Shown here: one piece after another, positions 3,821 to 17,311 of the stretch
Numbering within the stretch: position 1 is the first letter of the stretch
How the letters are laid out: each line of letters opens with the position of its first letter
Assembly (NCBI RefSeq): GCF_003932955.1
Contig: NZ_QOVY01000003.1
Location: 1 to 64,000, forward strand
Length of the DNA stretch: 64,000 nucleotides
Direction of reading: 5' to 3'
Source: Chryseobacterium sp. SC28
GTDB lineage: Bacteria; Bacteroidota; Bacteroidia; Flavobacteriales; Weeksellaceae
Position numbers and translations under genes: made by a program
Notes under the pieces: generated by a model
What the model was told of the DNA's origin: nothing
Seen by the model: the letters and a program-made list of their open reading frames with translations, nothing else
Databases searched by the model: none

Positions 3821-5332
3821 TTATCTTACTTCTTGCATTAATTTTTTGACGAATGGCGAGATCAAAATTAGTACAACGCCCGCTATTAATGCATATAAGC
3901 CCAATTGTTTGTATCCATTGGTGTAAGTGATGAGCGCATCGTAATTGGTGGCGCCGGCTTTTACTTTCGCCATTCCTGCCCCAATCTGCCCTGCAACATA
4001 TTGCCCGTAAGCAGAGGCCAGGAACCACATTCCCATCATCATTCCTTGGAGTTTTTCGGTGGAGAGTTTGGTCATTATAGATAATCCGATCGGCGAGAGA
4101 CACATCTCGCCCAACGTGATGACGAAGAGTGCCAGCGTGAAAACACTCAGCGAGGTGACGCCTTGCTGAGTCGCGAAAAACCGTGTTGCAAAGATGACGT
4201 AATATCCAAGTCCCAAGAAGATGAAGCCCAAGCCAAATTTAATAATCGTGTTGGGCTCCATTTTCTTTTTATTGAGCCATATCCAGAAAAGACCGATTGG
4301 AACGGCGACCAGTAAAATAAAAAACGCGCCTGCCGAATTGTTGACACCGTTGGGATCCAGACCCAAAAGATCTTGGTTCAAATTGTTTGCTGCGAAGATG
4401 CTTAATGAACCACCGCTTTGCTCATAAATTCCCCAAAATAGGACTGAAAATAAGATGAAAACCAAAGCTGCCCAAAGTTTGTTTCTTTCGGCTGCGCTTA
4501 CTTTTGACATTTCGTAGAAGAGATAAAGCAAGGTCAGCGGTCCAACAGTCCACATAAAATAGTCGGTATATTGCGGAACTGAAACCATAATTATAACCAA
4601 AGGCACAAAGACGATGGATAAGACATAAACTCCGTATTCTTTCCATTTTGGAAACGGCGAAAACGTGCCATCTGCATTCGATTTTTGAGGTGGAAGTCCA
4701 ATGGGTCCTAAGTGTCTTTGTGTAAAGATAAAATTGATCAAACTGATTACCATCACGATGGCAGCCAAGCCGAAAGCAACATTCCATCTTTTATGTTCGG
4801 GAATTAAGCGTGATAGCATTTCGCCCTTTCCGATGGCGATGCACAGGTAGCCGCCCAAAAGTGCTCCCAGATTGATACCGGCGTAGAAAAGAGAAAATCC
4901 GGCATCGGTTCTGCTGTCATTGGGTTTATAAAGTTTTCCGACCATCGTAGAAATGTTGGGTTTGAAAAAACCCGTTCCTACAACCGTGAAAGCAATTCCG
5001 ATAAAGAAAAAATCGTGCGGATTGGCAGCCAAAATCGCACTGCCGATAATCATCAGGAAGCCTCCCCAAAAAAGCGATTTTCGGAATCCTAAAATTTTGT
5101 CTGCAAATAATCCTCCTACAAAGGTGAAGGTGTAAACGAAAGCTTGTGTTGCGCCATATTGCAAATTTGCTTGTTCGTCTCCGAATTTTAACTGAGAAAT
5201 CATAAAAAAAACCAGCATACCGCGCATGCCGTAGAAGCAGAAGCGTTCCCACATTTCTGAAAAGAAAAGGGACCAGATTTGTTTGGGATATCTGCCTTTG
5301 AAATTTTGTATTTCTTCGAGGGTAAGGTTCAT
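3821..5332 (-). CDS. POT-family peptide/H+ symporter (copy 1)
   Basis: A proton-coupled oligopeptide transporter (POT/PTR2, major facilitator superfamily) in the inner membrane, taking up di- and tripeptides. The start is placed at the ATG at 5332 (MNLTLEEIQNFKG, 503 residues). A longer frame to 5485 would add 51 polar residues unlike the family and would overlap the neighbouring gene. Family signatures are seen: SEMWERFCFYGMR (the ExxERF motif of helix 1), FYAGINLGAL in helix 5, and GEMCLSPIGLS in helix 10. Length and hydrophobic pattern fit 14 membrane segments. It is the last of three POT genes; a terminator-like hairpin at 5362-5388 separates it from the second. Confidence 0.93.
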   Translation of the reverse strand: MNLTLEEIQNFKGRYPKQIWSLFFSEMWERFCFYGMRGMLVFFMISQLKFGDEQANLQYGATQAFVYTFTFVGGLFADKILGFRKSLFWGGFLMIIGSAILAANPHDFFFIGIAFTVVGTGFFKPNISTMVGKLYKPNDSRTDAGFSLFYAGINLGALLGGYLCIAIGKGEMLSRLIPEHKRWNVAFGLAAIVMVISLINFIFTQRHLGPIGLPPQKSNADGTFSPFPKWKEYGVYVLSIVFVPLVIIMVSVPQYTDYFMWTVGPLTLLYLFYEMSKVSAAERNKLWAALVFILFSVLFWGIYEQSGGSLSIFAANNLNQDLLGLDPNGVNNSAGAFFILLVAVPIGLFWIWLNKKKMEPNTIIKFGLGFIFLGLGYYVIFATRFFATQQGVTSLSVFTLALFVITLGEMCLSPIGLSIMTKLSTEKLQGMMMGMWFLASAYGQYVAGQIGAGMAKVKAGATNYDALITYTNGYKQLGLYALIAGVVLILISPFVKKLMQEVR

Positions 5333-5361
5333 TCTATGATTTTTTTGACATACGAATTTAA

Positions 5362-5388
5362 CAAAAAACCACCGGATATTCGGTGGTT
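5362..5388 (-). terminator. Rho-independent terminator after the second POT gene
   Basis: A perfect 8-base stem (AACCACCG / CGGTGGTT) with a 6-base loop. Read on the minus strand it is followed by a run of six T, just downstream of the POT gene that ends at 5413. Confidence 0.8.
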
Positions 5389-5412
5389 CTGCGTTGTTAT
5401 ATTTGTGAGCAG

Positions 5413-7131
5413 TTAGTTCAATCCGTGCATCATTTTTTTCAGTCTCGGTGATAAAATTGCCAAAATTATTGCAGCAACGCCACAAAGCACCACAAATACC
5501 ATAAAGAATTCGAATAAGTTATTAATCTCAACCCCCGCAAATGTGGTGTTGGCCACAGGTAATTGTTCTTTTTCAAATAATGCCACTTGCTCGGGAGTCA
5601 ATGTCACTTTTTTGTCCAAAACATCTTGAAGATTGACACCCAGTTTTTCGGCTTTTACAAATTTGTCGCCCGTTGCAGGAATGATGGATCCCAACGAGCC
5701 TGCTAAAGCGTAACCCGCAGCATTAGAAATAAAGAATACACCATATAACAGGGATGCAAATCTTTTGGGAGCCAGTTTTCCTACCAAAGATAAGCCAATT
5801 GGCGACAGGCAAAGTTCGCCCATTGTTTGGATGAGGTATAGTAACATCAGCCATTTGATGGCCAATAATCCGGTATTTCCCAAGTCTTTGACGTTGTACG
5901 CAATAATCAAGTAGCTTAGGGCAATCAGACCCAAACCGATTGCTTGTTTCATCGGAGAAACAGGTTCCTTGCCTTTGGCGCGCAATTTATCCCAGAGCAA
6001 ACTGAAAGGCAAAGCCAGCAGTACCACGAACAATCCATTGAAAATCTGAACCATCGACGGCGGCATATTCCATCCAAAAATATTTCTATCGGTTTGATTA
6101 TCAGCAATAAATGTTAATGAGGAACCAGCCTGCTCAAAAGCTGCCCAAAAGAAAATGATAAAGAATGAAACGATATAGATGACCCAGATTCTGTCTCTTT
6201 CCACTTTGGTCTCGGCAGAGCTCATAATCAAAAATGCCAATGAAATGCCGGCGGCGTAGATGAATGGATAGATAATTCCTTTGATCAGTTGACCCATTTC
6301 AACAGAGCTAAAACCAAATTCGCTCACCAAAATATAACGGAACACGAAGAACAAGGCTACGAATAGCACGCTCGCGATTCCCATATTCTTACCCGAAAAT
6401 TTAGCCGTTTGTGTTTCGCCTTCTTCGAAATCTTCGCTCGTATTATTTTTTGGCAATCCACCGATAGGCCTGCCTTCGGGCGTTACCACGTATTTGTTTT
6501 TAAGAATAAGAAACGTGGTTGTTCCTATCAACATTGCAATAGAAGCGGCCAAAAATCCCCATTTGAAAGCAAAAACATCGCGAACACCGGAAGCATCTTT
6601 GACATCTCCTAAATAGGGGCAGATAAACTGACCTAAGAATGCACCAATGTTGATACCCATATAGAAAATGGTAAATGCAGAATCCAGTTTAGACTTTTCC
6701 TGTTTTGGATAAAGACTTCCCACCATCGAAGAAATATTGGGTTTGAAGAATCCATTTCCGAAAATAATAACAAACAGTCCCAGCCACATCAACGTTTTGG
6801 CACCACCCAGATTTGTAGAAAATGTAGAAGCACTGAAGAACAGGAATAATTGCCCAATGGCCATCAAAGTGCCACCCGTTAAGATGGCATTTCTGTTTCC
6901 AATATATTTGTCTGCTATGAAACCGCCCAAGAGCGGCGTCAAATAACAGAGCGCCAAAAAGCCGCCGTAAATAATGGCCGCATCTGCTTCTTTGATTAGG
7001 AGAGCATTTACGAGAAAGAGCGTCAGCAATGCCCTCATTCCGTAAAAGTTAAACCGCTCCCACATTTCGGTGCCGAATAATACCCAAAGACCCTTTGGAT
7101 GCTTTTGCTTAGCCTGTACTGCTGTATCCAT
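5413..7131 (-). CDS. POT-family peptide/H+ symporter (copy 2)
   Basis: A second proton-coupled oligopeptide transporter, 572 residues. It carries the POT signatures TEMWERFNFYGMRALL (residues about 21-36), FYMGINIGAF and GELCLSPIGLS. The first and third are close to copy 1, so the two are paralogues. It has a longer loop before the last helices (KAEKLGVNLQDVLDKK and following) that copy 1 lacks. The ATG at 7131 lies about 32 bases downstream of a TATATTTG -7 box, so it probably has its own promoter. The substrate is inferred to be small peptides; specificity cannot be read from sequence. Confidence 0.95.
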   Translation of the reverse strand: MDTAVQAKQKHPKGLWVLFGTEMWERFNFYGMRALLTLFLVNALLIKEADAAIIYGGFLALCYLTPLLGGFIADKYIGNRNAILTGGTLMAIGQLFLFFSASTFSTNLGGAKTLMWLGLFVIIFGNGFFKPNISSMVGSLYPKQEKSKLDSAFTIFYMGINIGAFLGQFICPYLGDVKDASGVRDVFAFKWGFLAASIAMLIGTTTFLILKNKYVVTPEGRPIGGLPKNNTSEDFEEGETQTAKFSGKNMGIASVLFVALFFVFRYILVSEFGFSSVEMGQLIKGIIYPFIYAAGISLAFLIMSSAETKVERDRIWVIYIVSFFIIFFWAAFEQAGSSLTFIADNQTDRNIFGWNMPPSMVQIFNGLFVVLLALPFSLLWDKLRAKGKEPVSPMKQAIGLGLIALSYLIIAYNVKDLGNTGLLAIKWLMLLYLIQTMGELCLSPIGLSLVGKLAPKRFASLLYGVFFISNAAGYALAGSLGSIIPATGDKFVKAEKLGVNLQDVLDKKVTLTPEQVALFEKEQLPVANTTFAGVEINNLFEFFMVFVVLCGVAAIILAILSPRLKKMMHGLN

Positions 7132-7162
7132 ATTTCTGATTGTTAAATTTTCTTAAAGGTAA

Positions 7163-7170
7163 CAAATATA
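7163..7170 (-). promoter_or_regulatory. -7 promoter box (TATATTTG) of the second POT gene
   Basis: A perfect Bacteroidota TAnnTTTG box on the minus strand, 31 bases upstream of the ATG at 7131. No TTG was found at the ideal -33 distance. Confidence 0.5.
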
Positions 7171-7240
7171 GTTTTTTTTCATAAATGGGAAAGCTAAATT
7201 GCAAGCGATTAACAAAATCCAACCGATTTATTAAACAATA

Positions 7241-7729
7241 ATGGAAATTAGAAAGTCGAATTCCGAAGACATCAACGAAATAATGAACTGCATCGACTTC
7301 GCCAGAAAGCTGATGCGCGCCAGCGGAAATTCTGTGCAATGGATCAATGGTTATCCTTCCAAAGAATTGATGTTGGAAAGTATCGAAAATGGTTTTAATT
7401 TTTTGATTTTGAAAAATGGGGAAGTTGTGGCCACTTTTGATTTTATTATCGGCAATGATCCCAATTATTCAGTAATTGAAAATGGAGCTTGGCTGAATGA
7501 CGATCCATACGGCGTCATCCACCGATTGGCGTCCAACGGGAAGGCAAAAGGCGTCGCGAAATTCTGCTTCGAATGGTGTTTTTCCCAATTCCCAAACATC
7601 AGAATCGATACGCACGAAACCAATATCGCAATGCAAAAAGTGTTGGAAAAACTCGGTTACCAAAAATGCGGCATCATCTACGTGGCCGATGGAACGCCGA
7701 GATTGGCCTATCAATTGGTCAATAGTTGA
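7241..7729 (+). CDS. GNAT family N-acetyltransferase
   Basis: A 162-residue GNAT-fold protein on the plus strand between two minus-strand peptide transporters. The acetyl-CoA loop is degenerate (HRLASNGKAKGVAKF in place of a clear Q/R-x-x-G-x-G), but the motif B end is typical: IRIDTHETNIAMQKVLEKLGY, i.e. D-T-x-x-x-N-x-x-M followed by LEKLGF-like. The early part EDINEIMNCIDFARK is the usual helix 1. The substrate is unknown. It is divergent from the second POT gene and convergent with the third. Confidence 0.85.
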   Translation: MEIRKSNSEDINEIMNCIDFARKLMRASGNSVQWINGYPSKELMLESIENGFNFLILKNGEVVATFDFIIGNDPNYSVIENGAWLNDDPYGVIHRLASNGKAKGVAKFCFEWCFSQFPNIRIDTHETNIAMQKVLEKLGYQKCGIIYVADGTPRLAYQLVNS

Positions 7730-7798
7730 TGGTTTTTGGTTAATAGATTTAATAATTTTTAAAACGAACAACCATCAACCAACAACCAACAACCCTCT

Positions 7799-9475
7799 TT
7801 AATCAACCCCTTTCTCCTTCATCACTTGATTCAAAAATTTCAGCATAAACAGGCCGAGTACAAAAGCAAAAATCAACAAGGCAAAATTTACAAGGAAGTA
7901 ATATTCCTTATGTTCGTAACTGTACCAAGTGCTGGCCAAGATTCCGGAAAGCTTGTTCCCAATAGAGTTGGCAAGGAAAAATCCACCCATCATCAAAGCG
8001 GTCAATCTCACTGGCGACAGTTTTGAAACCACCGATAAACCCATCGGAGAAAGGCAAAGTTCCCCAATCGTCACCACGCCGTAACTCGCAACCAACCAGA
8101 GCGGAGAGACTTTCACGGCGCCATTATCGCCGGCAAATACGGCGCCTACCATCACGAGGCAGGACAAAGCGGTGATGAAAAGTCCAATCATAATTTTTGT
8201 AGGCGTCGTCGGTTCTTTCCCGCGTTTTCGCAGAATTGCCCAGAATCCGACAATCAAAGGCGTGAGAACAATCACCCAAAACGGATTTACAGATTGGAAA
8301 AGTTCGGTATTGAAGAGATACACTTCCTGTTTTGGATCTTTGGCTAATGCAGCAAGTTGCTTGGGGTCGATATTTTTAAAATAAACATCTTTGCCAATGA
8401 CTTTTATGGTTTCGCCGGCTTCATTTTTCTGCGAGCGGAATTGATCGTCGTAAACGGCCACTTCTTTGTCTTCAAATGATTTCCCGACGGTTCCGTTTTT
8501 CCCATCCAGCATATAAATGCTTCGCATTGGTTCCACTAATTTCTCGGGAATGCTGCGATCGGTGTAATAGTTGGCCCAACGTGTCAATGCTGTTCCGTTT
8601 TGTTTGAAAATCGCCCAAAAAAACATACAGACCAAGAAGATCATCAGCAAAGCGCCGATGGACCTTTTCTCGTCGTGATGCGCCTTGACGTAAATTGAAA
8701 TGTAAAAATAAACTACCGGAACGCAGGCAAAAATAAAGGCATCCGTGCTGTCGCTTCCAAAGATATTGCCGGGAATGATCCATCCGATAAATCCAACAAT
8801 TAATGCGGGTACAAAGACTTTCAGGAGCACATCAGAAATCTTGCTGTCGCCTTCTTTGGCCGGCTTCATTTTGCAGGCGTGACGGATATGCTTCAATCCA
8901 AAACTGAAAATCACCAAGCCAATGAGAATTCCCACGCCGGCGGCGATGAAAGCCTCGCCCCAGCCAAACCGGTTGCGCATATAAGCTGCAATAATGTTGC
9001 AGATAAACGCACCAATGTTGATTCCCATATAGAAAATATTGTAGCCGGTGTCTTTGTTCTTTTTGTATGGTTCCTCGGAATAAAGATTCCCAAGAATGGT
9101 AGAAATCGTCGGTTTGAAGAATCCGTTCCCGATGATTATTAGGCCCAATGAACCATAAAACAAAGGCAATTCTTTGAAAAATCCGAGACCGATGTATCCG
9201 GCAGCCATCAAAATCCCACCCAGATAAATGGATTTGATATAACCAAAAAGTCTTTCTGCAAGAAAACCGCCGAGAAACGGCGTGAGATAAGTGAGTGCAA
9301 TATAAGTTCCGAAAACATCATCTGCCATTTTATCCGGCAATCCCAGTCCGCCTTTGTCGCCGCTTGGTTCTATGAGGTAGAGCACGAAAATGCCGAGAAT
9401 CAAATAGTAACCAAAGCGTTCCCACATTTCTGTGAAAAAAAGATAAGGCAGGCCTTTGGGATGTTTTTTCATCAC
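7799..9475 (-). CDS. POT-family peptide/H+ symporter (copy 3)
   Basis: A third proton-coupled oligopeptide transporter, 558 residues. Signatures: TEMWERFGYYLILGIF, FYMGINIGAF and GELCLSPMGLS. It differs from copies 1 and 2 by a large polar loop in the middle (about residues 290-370, with KNGTVGKSFEDKEVAVYDDQ), which probably faces the periplasm or cytoplasm between helices. Helix 1 has YYLILG where the others have FYGMR, suggesting a different substrate range. A 39-base sequence just upstream (9484-9522) recurs upstream of the next gene and probably carries the promoter. Confidence 0.94.
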   Translation of the reverse strand: MMKKHPKGLPYLFFTEMWERFGYYLILGIFVLYLIEPSGDKGGLGLPDKMADDVFGTYIALTYLTPFLGGFLAERLFGYIKSIYLGGILMAAGYIGLGFFKELPLFYGSLGLIIIGNGFFKPTISTILGNLYSEEPYKKNKDTGYNIFYMGINIGAFICNIIAAYMRNRFGWGEAFIAAGVGILIGLVIFSFGLKHIRHACKMKPAKEGDSKISDVLLKVFVPALIVGFIGWIIPGNIFGSDSTDAFIFACVPVVYFYISIYVKAHHDEKRSIGALLMIFLVCMFFWAIFKQNGTALTRWANYYTDRSIPEKLVEPMRSIYMLDGKNGTVGKSFEDKEVAVYDDQFRSQKNEAGETIKVIGKDVYFKNIDPKQLAALAKDPKQEVYLFNTELFQSVNPFWVIVLTPLIVGFWAILRKRGKEPTTPTKIMIGLFITALSCLVMVGAVFAGDNGAVKVSPLWLVASYGVVTIGELCLSPMGLSVVSKLSPVRLTALMMGGFFLANSIGNKLSGILASTWYSYEHKEYYFLVNFALLIFAFVLGLFMLKFLNQVMKEKGVD

Positions 9476-9483
9476 TGTTTTTG

Positions 9484-9522
9484 TCTTGAATCGTAAAAAT
9501 AGAAATTTAAAATGAATTAAAA
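9484..9522. repeat. 39-base direct repeat, copy A
   Basis: Identical over 39 bases to 10275-10313, same orientation. It begins TCTTGAATCGTAAAAATAG. It sits 8 bases upstream of the third POT gene. On the minus strand it contains TATTTTTA, one base off the TAnnTTTG promoter box. The two copies bracket the secreted-protein gene at 9554-10243. Confidence 0.9.
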
Positions 9523-9553
9523 GCCACTCAAAAATTGAGACCTGATGTTATTT

Positions 9554-10243
9554 CTAATTTGAAACCGGTGCTGGTGAAGTATATTCTATAACTTCTTTGA
9601 CTTTTGATCTCTCCGCTTTCACTAAGCCATTTATTAAACTTTCAATCTTCGTTTTAGAACTCACAAACAAGTTTTCAAATGTATAGGAAAAAACGCCGGT
9701 ATAACCTCCTTCAGTTAAGTAATAGTTAGCCATATAATGAAAATCCATACCTTGAATATTTGCAATATATTCTAAGAATAAAACGTTGATTCCATTGAGA
9801 GTTCGGTACTCTGAAGAAATCAATCTGAAAAAGCTGGCTCTTTTTTGAAGATTAGAAATTATCAAGTTTTTCAAATTTTTCAAAGTTTGAATTGGAGCTT
9901 TTTCAGAAACAAAAACACCATAAGATTGACTGGTTATATCTTGAAAAGTATATTCAGCTATTGGTGAAATGTCAGCTTTTACAGTTTTCCACTGTTTTGG
10001 ATTAAAGTAAATTCCAGAATCTAATTTTTGGCTTTTTAAAAGAAAAGTGGCATCCGCAGATTTATTGAAAATGGTGTTGTTGGTTATTATTTCGTCCATC
10101 GTTTTTTCGTCACTTTCATTCACGAAACGCCAAGTTTTATTATCAAAAAGAACAACTTCTTTCCCGTCTTCTGTCAAAGCTTTTGTTTGTGAGGAGGAAA
10201 AAGAATAGAGCAGTGCAAAGAATATGATTGTTATTTTTTTCAT
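9554..10243 (-). CDS. Secreted hypothetical protein with DUF3157-like N-terminus
   Basis: A 229-residue protein with a signal peptide (MKKITIIFFALLYSFSSSQ). The mature start ALTEDGKEVVLFDNKTWRF resembles the short 'DGxxVxLxxDxTW' motif found in DUF3157-type Bacteroidota proteins. The rest (residues 60-229) has mixed alpha/beta character and no motif I recognise; YLTEGGYTGVFSYTFENLF recalls a periplasmic lipid- or ligand-binding fold, but this is speculative. The gene is more AT-rich than its neighbours and is bracketed by a perfect 39-base direct repeat, which suggests it was inserted or duplicated into place. Confidence 0.75.
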   Translation of the reverse strand: MKKITIIFFALLYSFSSSQTKALTEDGKEVVLFDNKTWRFVNESDEKTMDEIITNNTIFNKSADATFLLKSQKLDSGIYFNPKQWKTVKADISPIAEYTFQDITSQSYGVFVSEKAPIQTLKNLKNLIISNLQKRASFFRLISSEYRTLNGINVLFLEYIANIQGMDFHYMANYYLTEGGYTGVFSYTFENLFVSSKTKIESLINGLVKAERSKVKEVIEYTSPAPVSN

Positions 10244-10274
10244 GATTAATTTGAATAAGTATTAGTTTTTATTT

Positions 10275-10313
10275 TCTTGAATCGTAAAAATAGAAATTTA
10301 AAATGAATTAAAA
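10275..10313. repeat. 39-base direct repeat, copy B
   Basis: Second copy of the repeat at 9484-9522, with no mismatch over 39 bases. It lies 31 bases upstream of the ATG of the secreted-protein gene at 10243 and probably supplies its promoter. Confidence 0.9.
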
Positions 10314-10357
10314 AATTTTAACAACCTTGATAAAAAGTTGTCGAAATAGTAGATTAT

Positions 10358-10392
10358 AAAAAACCGCAAAAGATATTTCTTCTGCGGATTTT
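10358..10392. terminator. Terminator after the S9 peptidase gene
   Basis: Stem CCGCA-AAG / CTT-TGCGG with a short AT loop, flanked by A and T runs on both sides. On the minus strand it lies directly downstream of the peptidase gene that ends at 10417. Confidence 0.7.
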
Positions 10393-10416: not shown

Positions 10417-12552
10417 CTACAAATTCTCCAAAATAAAATTCGTCATTTTCTCGTAAAGCTGAGGCCGTGTGTTGCCACCAAAAATGCCGTGATTCTTGTC
10501 CGGATAAGCCATAAACTCAAACTGCTTTTTACTCTGAATCAAGGCTTCCGAAAACGCCATCGAGTTCTGGAAATGCACGTTGTCATCAGCTGTTCCGTGG
10601 ATCAAGAGGAATTTTCCTTTGAGTAATTTTGCAAAGGTCGTGGGCGAGTTTTGGTCGTATCCTTCCGGGTTTTCTTGAGGCGTTTGCAGGAATTTTTCGG
10701 TGTAAACGGTGTCGTAATATCTCCAGTTGGTGACGGGCGCCACCGCAATGCCGAGTTTGAAGATATCGGCCCCTTTCGTCATCGCGAGCGAACTCATATA
10801 ACCGCCAAAACTCCATCCGAAAATCCCGATTCTGGTTTTATCGATATAAGACTGATTTCCAAACCATTTTGCGGCGGTAATTTGGTCTTCGATTTCATAT
10901 TTTCCGAGTTGTTTGTAAATCACTTTTTTGAATTTGGAACCTTTGAAACCTGTTCCGCGACCGTCTACACAAGCTACCACATAGCCTTTCTGCGCCAGCA
11001 TTTCGAACCAAATTCCGTTGCCGCCGTCCCAAGAATTGGAAACTTGCTGAGAGCCCGGCCCGGAATATTGGAACATAAATAATGGATATTTTTTCGTGGG
11101 ATCAAAGTTTTTGGGTTTGATGATCCAAGCATTCAGCTGGTCGCCAACCGAATTGGGAATGGTCAAGAATTCTTTGGTGACGAAGCCATCTTTTTGAAGT
11201 TTGGAAAGCACTTCATCGTTATTCTGAAGCTCCTTAATTTCCTTCCCAGAAGCGTCCTTCAAAACAAATCGGTAAGGAGAAGCGGCCGTTGAAACTGTGT
11301 TGATGAAGTAATTGAAAGTTTTGCTAAATGCCGCCGAATTGTTGCCTTCCGGGTAAGAAATTAGCGTGGTTTTTCCGGAATTGATATCCAGTTTGGAAAC
11401 CACTTTATTCAGACTTCCTTTTTCCGTAGTTTGGATGTAGGCTTCTTTGGTTTTCGGGTTGTAGCCGTAGTAATCGGTGATTTCCCAATTGCCTTTCGCC
11501 ACTTGTTTTTTGAGTTTTCCGGATTTATCGTACCAATAGAGTTGTCGGTAGCCATCGCGTTCCGAAGCCCAAAGAAAGGAATTGTCGTCCAAAAACTCCA
11601 TCGTGAGATTGTCGGTTTCTATCCAAGCGTTGTCTGTTTCGGAGAATAGTTTGGTCAAGTTTCCGGATTTTGTATCCACTTTAATTAAATCCACTTTGCT
11701 GTGATGGCGGTTGCTGGTGGCGATTACGATTTCGTTGTCAGCATTGGTTTGCCAGATTTGCGGGATGTAATGATTCTCAAAATCGGAAATATTTAATGCC
11801 GTTGTCTTCGCAGACTTTAATTGGTAAAGATTGGCAGAAACGGTTGAGTTGGTTTCGCCGGCTTTTGGATATTTGTATCGCATTTCGGTCGGGTAAAGTG
11901 CTTTGCCGTATATCGGGATGAAGATTTCCGGAACTTTCGACTCGTCAAATTTTACGAAAACGATGGCGTCGCCCGATTTGTTCCATTGGTAATAATCGGC
12001 GTGAGAAAATTCCTCTTCGTAAACCCAATCTCCCAATCCGTTGATAATGGAATTTTTCTTTCCGTCGGAGGTTATCTGGACAATTTTATTTGATGTCAGA
12101 TCCTGATAAAACAAATTATTATCTACAATAAAAGCGACTTTGCTCCCATCGGGCGAGAACTTGGGCTCCTGAATCCAGTTTCCGTTATTGAGCGTTGCCA
12201 CTTTGTTTGATTTCAAATCTTTCACATCAAATTTGCCCAAAAAAGAATGTCTGTAGATGGGTTCGCTTTCTTTCTGAAGGAGAATTTTGGATTCGTCGGG
12301 TGAAAAAATATAAGCTTCGAAACTGCCATCCACGATGTTTCCGGCTTTTTGAGACGTTTTATAATTGTACTTTGCGATGCCGTCTTTCTCGATGGTTGCG
12401 TAGTTTTCGCCATCATTTAAGGAGGCAATTCCTGCGATGCCTTTTCCGCGGTAATACCCGGAATAGATTTTGTCTAATGTAATTTCCTGAGCATTAATAC
12501 TTTGCACAAAAACAGACGCGATCAAAACAACAGTAACGAATAGTTTCTTCAT
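10417..12552 (-). CDS. S9 family peptidase, dipeptidyl peptidase IV type
   Basis: A 711-residue exported serine peptidase that removes N-terminal dipeptides, often X-Pro. It has a signal peptide (MKKLFVTVVLIASVFVQSINA), then a DPP-IV beta-propeller (residues about 50-480, with SPDESKILL and FSPDGSKVAF blades), then the alpha/beta hydrolase domain. The catalytic serine is in GWSFGGY near residue 579, the aspartate in HGTADDNVHF near 655, and the histidine in DKNHGIFGG near 686. The EEEF motif that binds the substrate amino terminus is present (YEEEFSHADYYQW). Its product peptides could feed the POT transporters encoded alongside; that link is an inference. Confidence 0.94.
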   Translation of the reverse strand: MKKLFVTVVLIASVFVQSINAQEITLDKIYSGYYRGKGIAGIASLNDGENYATIEKDGIAKYNYKTSQKAGNIVDGSFEAYIFSPDESKILLQKESEPIYRHSFLGKFDVKDLKSNKVATLNNGNWIQEPKFSPDGSKVAFIVDNNLFYQDLTSNKIVQITSDGKKNSIINGLGDWVYEEEFSHADYYQWNKSGDAIVFVKFDESKVPEIFIPIYGKALYPTEMRYKYPKAGETNSTVSANLYQLKSAKTTALNISDFENHYIPQIWQTNADNEIVIATSNRHHSKVDLIKVDTKSGNLTKLFSETDNAWIETDNLTMEFLDDNSFLWASERDGYRQLYWYDKSGKLKKQVAKGNWEITDYYGYNPKTKEAYIQTTEKGSLNKVVSKLDINSGKTTLISYPEGNNSAAFSKTFNYFINTVSTAASPYRFVLKDASGKEIKELQNNDEVLSKLQKDGFVTKEFLTIPNSVGDQLNAWIIKPKNFDPTKKYPLFMFQYSGPGSQQVSNSWDGGNGIWFEMLAQKGYVVACVDGRGTGFKGSKFKKVIYKQLGKYEIEDQITAAKWFGNQSYIDKTRIGIFGWSFGGYMSSLAMTKGADIFKLGIAVAPVTNWRYYDTVYTEKFLQTPQENPEGYDQNSPTTFAKLLKGKFLLIHGTADDNVHFQNSMAFSEALIQSKKQFEFMAYPDKNHGIFGGNTRPQLYEKMTNFILENL

Positions 12553-12631
12553 TTTTTAAGATTTTAATGACGTAAATATAATAAAGATATATTGTTTTGA
12601 ATGTAATTATTGAAACGGAGAATTGCTAAAT

Positions 12632-12740
12632 GCGTGAGGGATAGTAGTGGAAATCCTTTTTTGCGGATGAAAAGGTGAGGGAAAAAGATTGCAACGGATA
12701 GCCCGACCCGAGCGGCTGCCTTGGTGTGGACGAGGGGCAC
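12632..12740 (+). repeat. Dispersed hairpin repeat, copy 1 (subfamily A)
   Basis: Core AGTGGAAATCCTTTTTT, a short spacer, GAAAAAGATTGCAACGGA and AGCCCGACCCGAGCGG. It shares GTGGAAATCCTTTTT and AAAAAGATTGCAACGGA with copy 2 at 34271-34345. The central stem is poorer than in copy 2. Confidence 0.7.
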
Positions 12741-17104: not shown

Positions 17105-17311
17105 ATGAAAAAATCATTGTTCGTAGCCGCAATCGCTGCTTTTGCTCTTGTAGCTTGTAAAAAAACCGAAAACGTAGAAACTACTTCAGCTGATTCTGCT
17201 GCTGTTGATTCTGCTGCTGCAACTGTTGATTCTGCTGCTGCAACTGTAGATTCTGCTGCTGCAACTGTTGATTCTGCTGCTGCAAAAGTTGATTCTGCTA
17301 CAACTAAGTAA
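17105..17311 (+). CDS. Small Ala/Asp/Ser-rich lipoprotein (copy 2) with tandem repeats
   Basis: A 68-residue protein whose first 19 residues nearly repeat those of the protein at 15012 (MKKSLFVAAIAAFALVACKK; lipobox LVAC). The mature part is four exact 7-residue repeats DSAAATV (the last ends AKV) between shorter partial units. The DNA shows the matching 21-base tandem repeat. It is divergent from the membrane regulator-like gene. Function unknown; a structural or envelope-stress lipoprotein is possible. Confidence 0.8.
   Translation: MKKSLFVAAIAAFALVACKKTENVETTSADSAAVDSAAATVDSAAATVDSAAATVDSAAAKVDSATTK
17207..17290 (+). repeat. 21-base tandem repeat, four units
   Basis: Units begin at 17207, 17228, 17249 and 17270 (GATTCTGCTGCTGCAACTGT plus one base), with partial units at 17192 and 17291. 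The period is a multiple of three, so copy-number change keeps the frame. Confidence 0.9.

Follow-up and report, generated by a model that had tools for sequence, protein, structure and literature searches.

A secreted-protein gene between two copies of a promoter-like element at a peptide-uptake locus of Weeksellaceae, and its probable insertion by promoter duplication

In a 64,000-nucleotide stretch of DNA from Chryseobacterium sp. SC28 (the window), a gene for a putative exported protein, here called SEC, is enclosed by two identical copies of a 39-base promoter-like element. Comparison with related genomes suggests that a cassette was probably inserted between the original promoter of the downstream peptide transporter gene (POT3) and POT3 itself, duplicating the promoter. 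The occupied and empty sites of two close relatives carry most of this reading, while the perfect identity of the two copies in the window appears to have a separate and more recent origin.

The 39-base repeat and the gene it encloses

The minus-strand order at the locus is DPP IV, P1, SEC, P2, POT3, in which P1 and P2 are the two repeat copies, with the following features.

7799–9475, minus strand: POT3, a POT-family di/tripeptide:H+ symporter (PF00854, E=9e-53; TIGR00924)
9484–9522, minus strand: P2, the 39-mer copy before POT3, identical to P1, with the −7 box TATTTTTA at 9494–9501
9527–9539, minus strand: short hairpin with a T-rich tail behind SEC (found by eye; the terminator scan did not flag it)
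9554–10243, minus strand: SEC, enclosed by the repeat, encoding a 229-aa putative exported protein (signal peptide by eye)
10275–10313, minus strand: P1, the 39-mer copy before SEC, with the −7 box TATTTTTA at 10285–10292
10364–10387, minus strand: terminator-like hairpin behind DPP IV (terminator scan)
10417–12552, minus strand: DPP IV, a dipeptidyl peptidase and the conserved left neighbour of the interval (PF00930, PF00326)

An alignment of starts shows that the conserved start of POT3 is not the listed GTG but an ATG three bases further in, at 9472. Hairpins behind SEC are more clearly terminator-like in relatives than in the window, as judged by eye. POT3 is the third of three POT-family transporter genes in a row (3821–9475) and is separated from the second by an acetyltransferase-like ORF (7241–7729, plus strand; by eye). 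Elsewhere in the window, a Flavo-1 RNA (RF01705, 53.8 bits) lies at 12620–12712 on the plus strand, just upstream of the DPP IV start and on the opposite strand to it, and 21-base tandem repeats at 17202–17290 fall inside a small Ala/Asp-rich lipoprotein-like ORF (17105–17311).

The initial annotation had described a perfect 39-base direct repeat upstream of two minus-strand genes, and the two copies are indeed identical at 39 of 39 bases; they are spaced 791 bases apart, are 85% AT and, when stretched to 45 bases, share 96% identity. The repeat is the longest perfect direct repeat of the 64-kb window. Its length rules out a chance product: 100 first-order Markov simulations yielded no repeat longer than 20 bases within 4 kb, versus 39 here. 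The additional genomic copies that the initial annotation had proposed looking for did not appear: when up to three mismatches were allowed across the strain's whole genome (48 contigs, 2.74 Mb), a 38-base version matched only the two known sites, and a 21-base core matched these two sites plus one more with three mismatches, against four matches for the reversed control. Since these searches gave no copies beyond the control level, the 39-mer is specific to this locus, and a common genomic element is ruled out. An Rfam search at the repeat returned no match.

SEC has a G+C fraction of 0.314, compared with 0.441 for POT3 and 0.425 for DPP IV, in line with the earlier description of the enclosed gene as more AT-rich than its neighbours. 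Because 50 of 320 genomes of the family, belonging to 6 of 33 genera, have homologues, the ORF represents a real gene, and it is a fast-changing secreted-protein gene. The window protein has no match in Pfam, NCBIfam, PADLOC or the PDB, and none to DUF3157 (PF11355) at an E-value of 0.1; twelve of 28 SEC homologues match DUF3157 weakly, with a best E-value of 0.0039 that falls short of the curated cut-off. We discarded a known defence protein, given the PADLOC result, as well as a phage- or plasmid-borne gene, as no plasmid or phage record carried SEC. Family and structure gave nothing solid on function, the AlphaFold model having a mean pLDDT of 39, which made it unusable and left no basis for a fold search. 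SEC lies between a peptidase that releases dipeptides and a dipeptide importer, and from this position we guess that it may function in peptide use.

The DPP IV–POT3 interval among relatives

The host (G000) belongs to the Epilithonimonas group of the Weeksellaceae. We compared 84 DPP IV–POT3 intervals, 22 from the genus and 62 from elsewhere in the family. G001, in which POT3 lies off the stretch, was left out of the genus set, and G170 and G219, in which the DPP IV end lies off the stretch, were left out of the family set. The 62 non-genus intervals are a non-random sample, comprising SEC carriers adjoining POT3 and genomes among the best POT3 matches listed. In 15 of a set of 20 stretches (genera g45 and g10), SEC lies away from DPP IV and POT3; these were left out of the interval counts.

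Between its two conserved nutrient-uptake genes, the interval is a variable locus, whose states are empty, toxin–antitoxin (TA) type, SEC, a 204-aa secreted gene, a TonB-receptor-like gene and other larger inserts (the larger ones named by eye). DPP IV was matched in all 23 genus genomes, and SEC is present in seven of the 23, in each case between DPP IV and POT3. The remaining 15 of the 22 genus intervals have other contents. The TA genes (DUF2281 and ParE) occur as antitoxin and toxin ORFs alone in G010, G014, G020 (Epilithonimonas sp. JDS) and G021 (Chryseobacterium sp. FP211-J200), and as an antitoxin ORF without a full-length toxin ORF in G004, G012, G013 and G017. Five intervals (G005, G007, G011, G015 and G016) hold the 204-aa gene, which has no Pfam match, with or without TA ORFs, and two (G009 and G018) hold the TonB-receptor-like gene, named by eye. 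In G005, G007, G011 and G015, the 204-aa gene has the TA-side flank and another promoter-like sequence, with no repeat. Among the 62 non-genus intervals, 21 are empty (139–232 bp) and 20 carry SEC directly behind DPP IV.

An element approximating TTTAAAAnnCTATTTTTRnGA stands immediately before POT3 in 21 of the 22 genus intervals, regardless of what lies upstream; the single exception is G002 (Weeksellaceae metagenome bin S2.104), the sister of the window's genome. A looser test, for a TAnnTTTR box within 130 nt, found one in 80 of the 84 family intervals. The sigma-A −7 consensus of flavobacteria, as mapped in Flavobacterium psychrophilum, is given as TAnnTTTG (PMC9723704). The window's box, TATTTTTA, is one base off this consensus, and many relatives have TATTTTTG. 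The 39-mer is therefore a conserved promoter-like element before POT3 and, given this resemblance and conservation, a putative promoter. Both copies nearly fit the flavobacterial box, as would two ordinary sigma-A promoters that merely look alike; this reading is extremely improbable, because the core has no third copy in 2.7 Mb beyond the control level, and because the identity runs through spacer and leader over 39 bases, where simulations gave at most 20.

Direct repeats of at least 24 bases with one copy in the 130 nt nearest POT3 and the other elsewhere in the interval occur in only three of the 84 intervals, namely G000 (39 bases), G003 (E. lactis DSM 19921; 27 bases) and G006 (24 bases), compared with simulated maxima of at most 15 bases. 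The corresponding runs are 14 bases in G008 (E. tenax DSM 16811) and 12 bases in G022, and G002 has P1 and SEC and lacks P2. SEC stands without the repeat, behind DPP IV and with one promoter, in all 20 sampled intervals of genus g36, presumably Chryseobacterium, and in G019. Since these intervals have no repeat, SEC was associated with the locus before the repeat was, and since their SEC has no promoter copy of its own, the repeat arrangement was not the route by which SEC first arrived. SEC is thus an old occupant of the interval in the family, and the promoter-duplicating form came later, within Epilithonimonas. The initial annotation had counted the gene without repeats in relatives against its own proposal; these 21 intervals, together with G002 with its P1 only, bear this out in part.

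Empty and occupied sites, and the identity of the two copies

The closest comparison of an empty with an occupied site is provided by G020 and G003, which are adjacent in the DPP IV tree (support 88/96), with identities of 94.3% in DPP IV and 94.7% in POT3. In G020 there is a single promoter and SEC is absent. The same site in G003 carries an 821-bp insert that contains SEC and is flanked by two copies of a 27-base promoter core. In the sequence to the left of the core, agreement with G020 is 57 of 60 positions for the left copy of G003 and 19 of 43 for its right copy; in the sequence to the right, it is 23 of 24 for the right copy and 10 of 20 for the left. The insert is therefore bounded exactly by the promoter repeat, and G020 is the kind of relative, with an empty site and one repeat, that the initial annotation had suggested seeking. 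On its POT3 side, the G003 insert retains a complete promoter. The 27-base promoter of G003 is a consensus found also in G010, G020 and G021, so the identity of the two cores proves little by itself and the flanks carry the argument. More than 60 nt away from the promoter, G003 and G020 diverge in their TA regions, the whole left flank being 68.9% identical with 106 gap columns, which implies that the left side underwent further change.

G003 is surrounded on well-supported branches by G013, G014, G018, G020 and G021, all of which are SEC-less; gain of SEC in G003 is therefore the simplest reading. Over the well-supported branches of the DPP IV tree, SEC presence requires at least four changes, and it is no more clustered on the tree than expected by chance (98 of 500 shuffles were as low). 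Promoter-duplicating insertion in the genus is, on this sequence comparison, well supported, and suggests that genes of this type can enter through recombination in a promoter while the downstream gene escapes silencing. In the window, in-silico removal of SEC with one repeat leaves a 158-bp interval with one promoter, within the size range of the 21 empty intervals among the 84; the earlier claim that a single recombination would leave the POT gene with its promoter holds on this count.

A direct repeat at both ends, a single copy in the empty site and a patchy presence would also be expected of a site-specific mobile element or an integron-like cassette with its attachment site in the promoter. 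We consider such an element very unlikely: the SEC units of the genus contain no recombinase-like ORF (ORFs judged by eye; the exception, G170, is outside the genus), the length and limits of the repeat vary between genomes (39, 27 and 24 bases) with no constant attachment core, and the plasmid and phage records lack SEC. In G170 (L164), SEC is broken into two parts that lie on the same contig about 80 kb from each other, and close to one of them is a 421-aa recombinase-like ORF (by eye); a mobile element probably inserted into SEC there.

The flanks of the window's own copies indicate which of the two is the older. Over the 70 nt ending at the promoter, P1 matches the single POT3 promoter of the SEC-less G020 and G021 at 62 of 70 positions, whereas P2 matches them at 44 of 60 and 46 of 66. 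Upstream of P1, the window and G002 retain a stretch that relatives have between the antitoxin start and the promoter, and the TA genes are gone.

10314–10350, minus strand: remnant of the antitoxin-start-to-promoter sequence of TA-bearing relatives (aligned by eye, limits approximate)

In this region, G002 retains an antitoxin-start-like CCATTT (alignment by eye). From the left-flank matches and the retained stretch, it follows that P1 occupies the position of the single promoter of TA alleles. The same left flank and remnant are also what one would see had the polarity been reversed, that is, had a segment of TA genes and promoter from a TA-type allele been inserted upstream of a SEC already resident behind DPP IV, where the repeat-free Chryseobacterium-type intervals and G019 have it. 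This alternative has a modest chance of being correct and is a live rival for some lineages; against it, the SEC-less state of G020, G013, G014, G018 and G021 around the SEC-bearing G003 favours gain of SEC, in that best-resolved case, at a site of the TA–promoter–POT3 type, as in the promoter-duplicating insertion that we prefer.

The perfect identity of P1 and P2 in the window is a different matter. Among the 84 intervals, the variant TTTAAATTTCTA is restricted to P1 and P2 of G000 plus P1 of G002, while ACGATTCAAG is confined to the two copies of G000 and CCTATTTTTGGGAAGTTGTG to the two copies of G006. In a test limited to the five genomes with both copies, P1 and P2 resemble each other more within than between genomes: counting the real pairing itself, 2 of 120 permutations reached the observed summed identity and 1 of 120 the observed summed run length. 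These observations point to recent copying of P1 into P2 in the window's genome, a direction indicated by the one variant that is common to P1 of G002.

P2 lies within a region in which the window and G002 differ strongly.

9080–10105, no strand assigned: tract of strong difference between the window and G002, from about SEC codon 46 through P2 to about POT3 codon 130 (limits approximate)

On either side of this tract, the two genomes are about 97% identical (97.0% in DPP IV). Within SEC, codons 1–46 are 95.7% identical between them and codons 47–225 are 62.2% identical, and the latter part of the window's gene is nearest to that of G006 (81.6%, compared with 79.1% for DPP IV), which leans towards transfer. 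A tract of about 1 kb has thus been replaced in one of the two sisters, G000 or G002. POT3 alleles themselves fall into two groups, about 93% and about 73% identical to the window protein, at the same place and mixed across the genus; this and the mosaic POT3 5′ end may be signs of raised homologous recombination in the flanking core genes. The SEC gene of G006 (L068) has a frameshift near codon 46, the point where the SEC alleles of the window and G002 start to diverge.

G002 has no P2, and the P2 of the window carries two variants found otherwise only in P1 of G000 and G002 or in P1 of G000. Taken to its limit, this would make the window's repeat a gene-conversion scar only, with P1 copied over an unrelated, G002-like region upstream of POT3 that was never an insertion boundary here. 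We judge this unlikely. All other SEC-bearing genomes of the genus have the element before POT3, which makes loss of P2 in G002 equally likely, and copying onto a non-homologous site would need a special route. The proposal of insertion by promoter duplication in the initial annotation thus gains from the G003/G020 pair and is narrowed on two counts: SEC is older at the locus than the duplication, and the 39/39 identity is not simply an insertion scar.

Proposed mechanism and comparison with known systems

From the element before POT3, the empty and occupied sites, the limits of the G003 insert relative to G020, the mosaic tract and the private shared variants, all read from sequence, we infer promoter activity, an order of events, a recombination route and excision as follows. 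The cassette would consist of SEC, the terminator-like hairpin and a second promoter, placed between P1 and the POT3 coding region, so that SEC would take over the old POT3 promoter, P1, while POT3 would be driven by P2, the copy that arrived with the cassette. Entry most likely went through homologous recombination with a relative's DNA, on the left within the promoter sequence and on the right within the promoter or POT3, and no dedicated recombinase would be needed for insertion. Recombination between P1 and P2 would restore the empty site. In the lineage of the window, the TA genes once located before P1 would have been lost, and P2 appears to have been recently overwritten with P1 sequence, within or beside the allele replacement of about 1 kb that covers SEC and the POT3 5′ end.

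Insertion of a gene directly downstream of a promoter would ordinarily silence the gene that this promoter serves. In a promoter-duplicating insertion, the newcomer would be expressed and the resident left intact, which would explain low-cost entry and exit of accessory genes at a nutrient-uptake locus without mobile elements. More broadly, and tentatively, promoters of Weeksellaceae may serve as short homology arms for cassette insertion: a crossover between similar promoters would bring a foreign gene under control of the resident one, and the promoter arriving with it would maintain expression of the resident gene; gene conversion would then keep the pair alike and the cassette removable. 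Because the incoming promoter copy keeps the resident gene expressed, insertion of this kind would be neutral to the neighbour by construction.

Several known systems share parts of this arrangement. Phage morons are single extra genes with their own promoter and terminator, located between conserved genes; the cassette is likewise a single extra gene with a promoter and a terminator-like hairpin between conserved genes, but it lies in a bacterial chromosome, its promoter is a duplicate of the neighbour's, and its insertion is marked by a repeat. Some integrative elements, SXT at prfC among them, restore the start of their target gene, using an integrase and an attachment site. The insertion described here is similarly on the 5′ side of a gene and replaces the part that was lost, whereas no integrase or attachment site is seen. 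In horizontal regulatory transfer, one promoter replaces another by recombination, and promoters move between alleles; promoter sequences appear to move between alleles here as well, but the promoter is present in duplicate, one copy on each side of a gene, and the two have been homogenised.

The closest parallel is with hotspots without mobile elements, which have been described as diversifying by recombination at flanking core genes (Oliveira et al. 2017, PMC5635113). As in the hotspots of that description, the DPP IV–POT3 interval has variable content between two conserved genes, most alleles lack an integrase, and the mosaic tract extends into a flanking gene, POT3. Whereas core genes form the arms in those hotspots, one arm here seems to be the flanking gene's promoter; as a result, the inserted gene would gain a promoter and the neighbour would get its promoter back. 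A limited literature search of open-licence papers returned no description of an insert bounded by the promoter of a flanking gene. Compared with those hotspots, the distinctive feature of this locus is an insert whose boundaries are set by the flanking gene's promoter.
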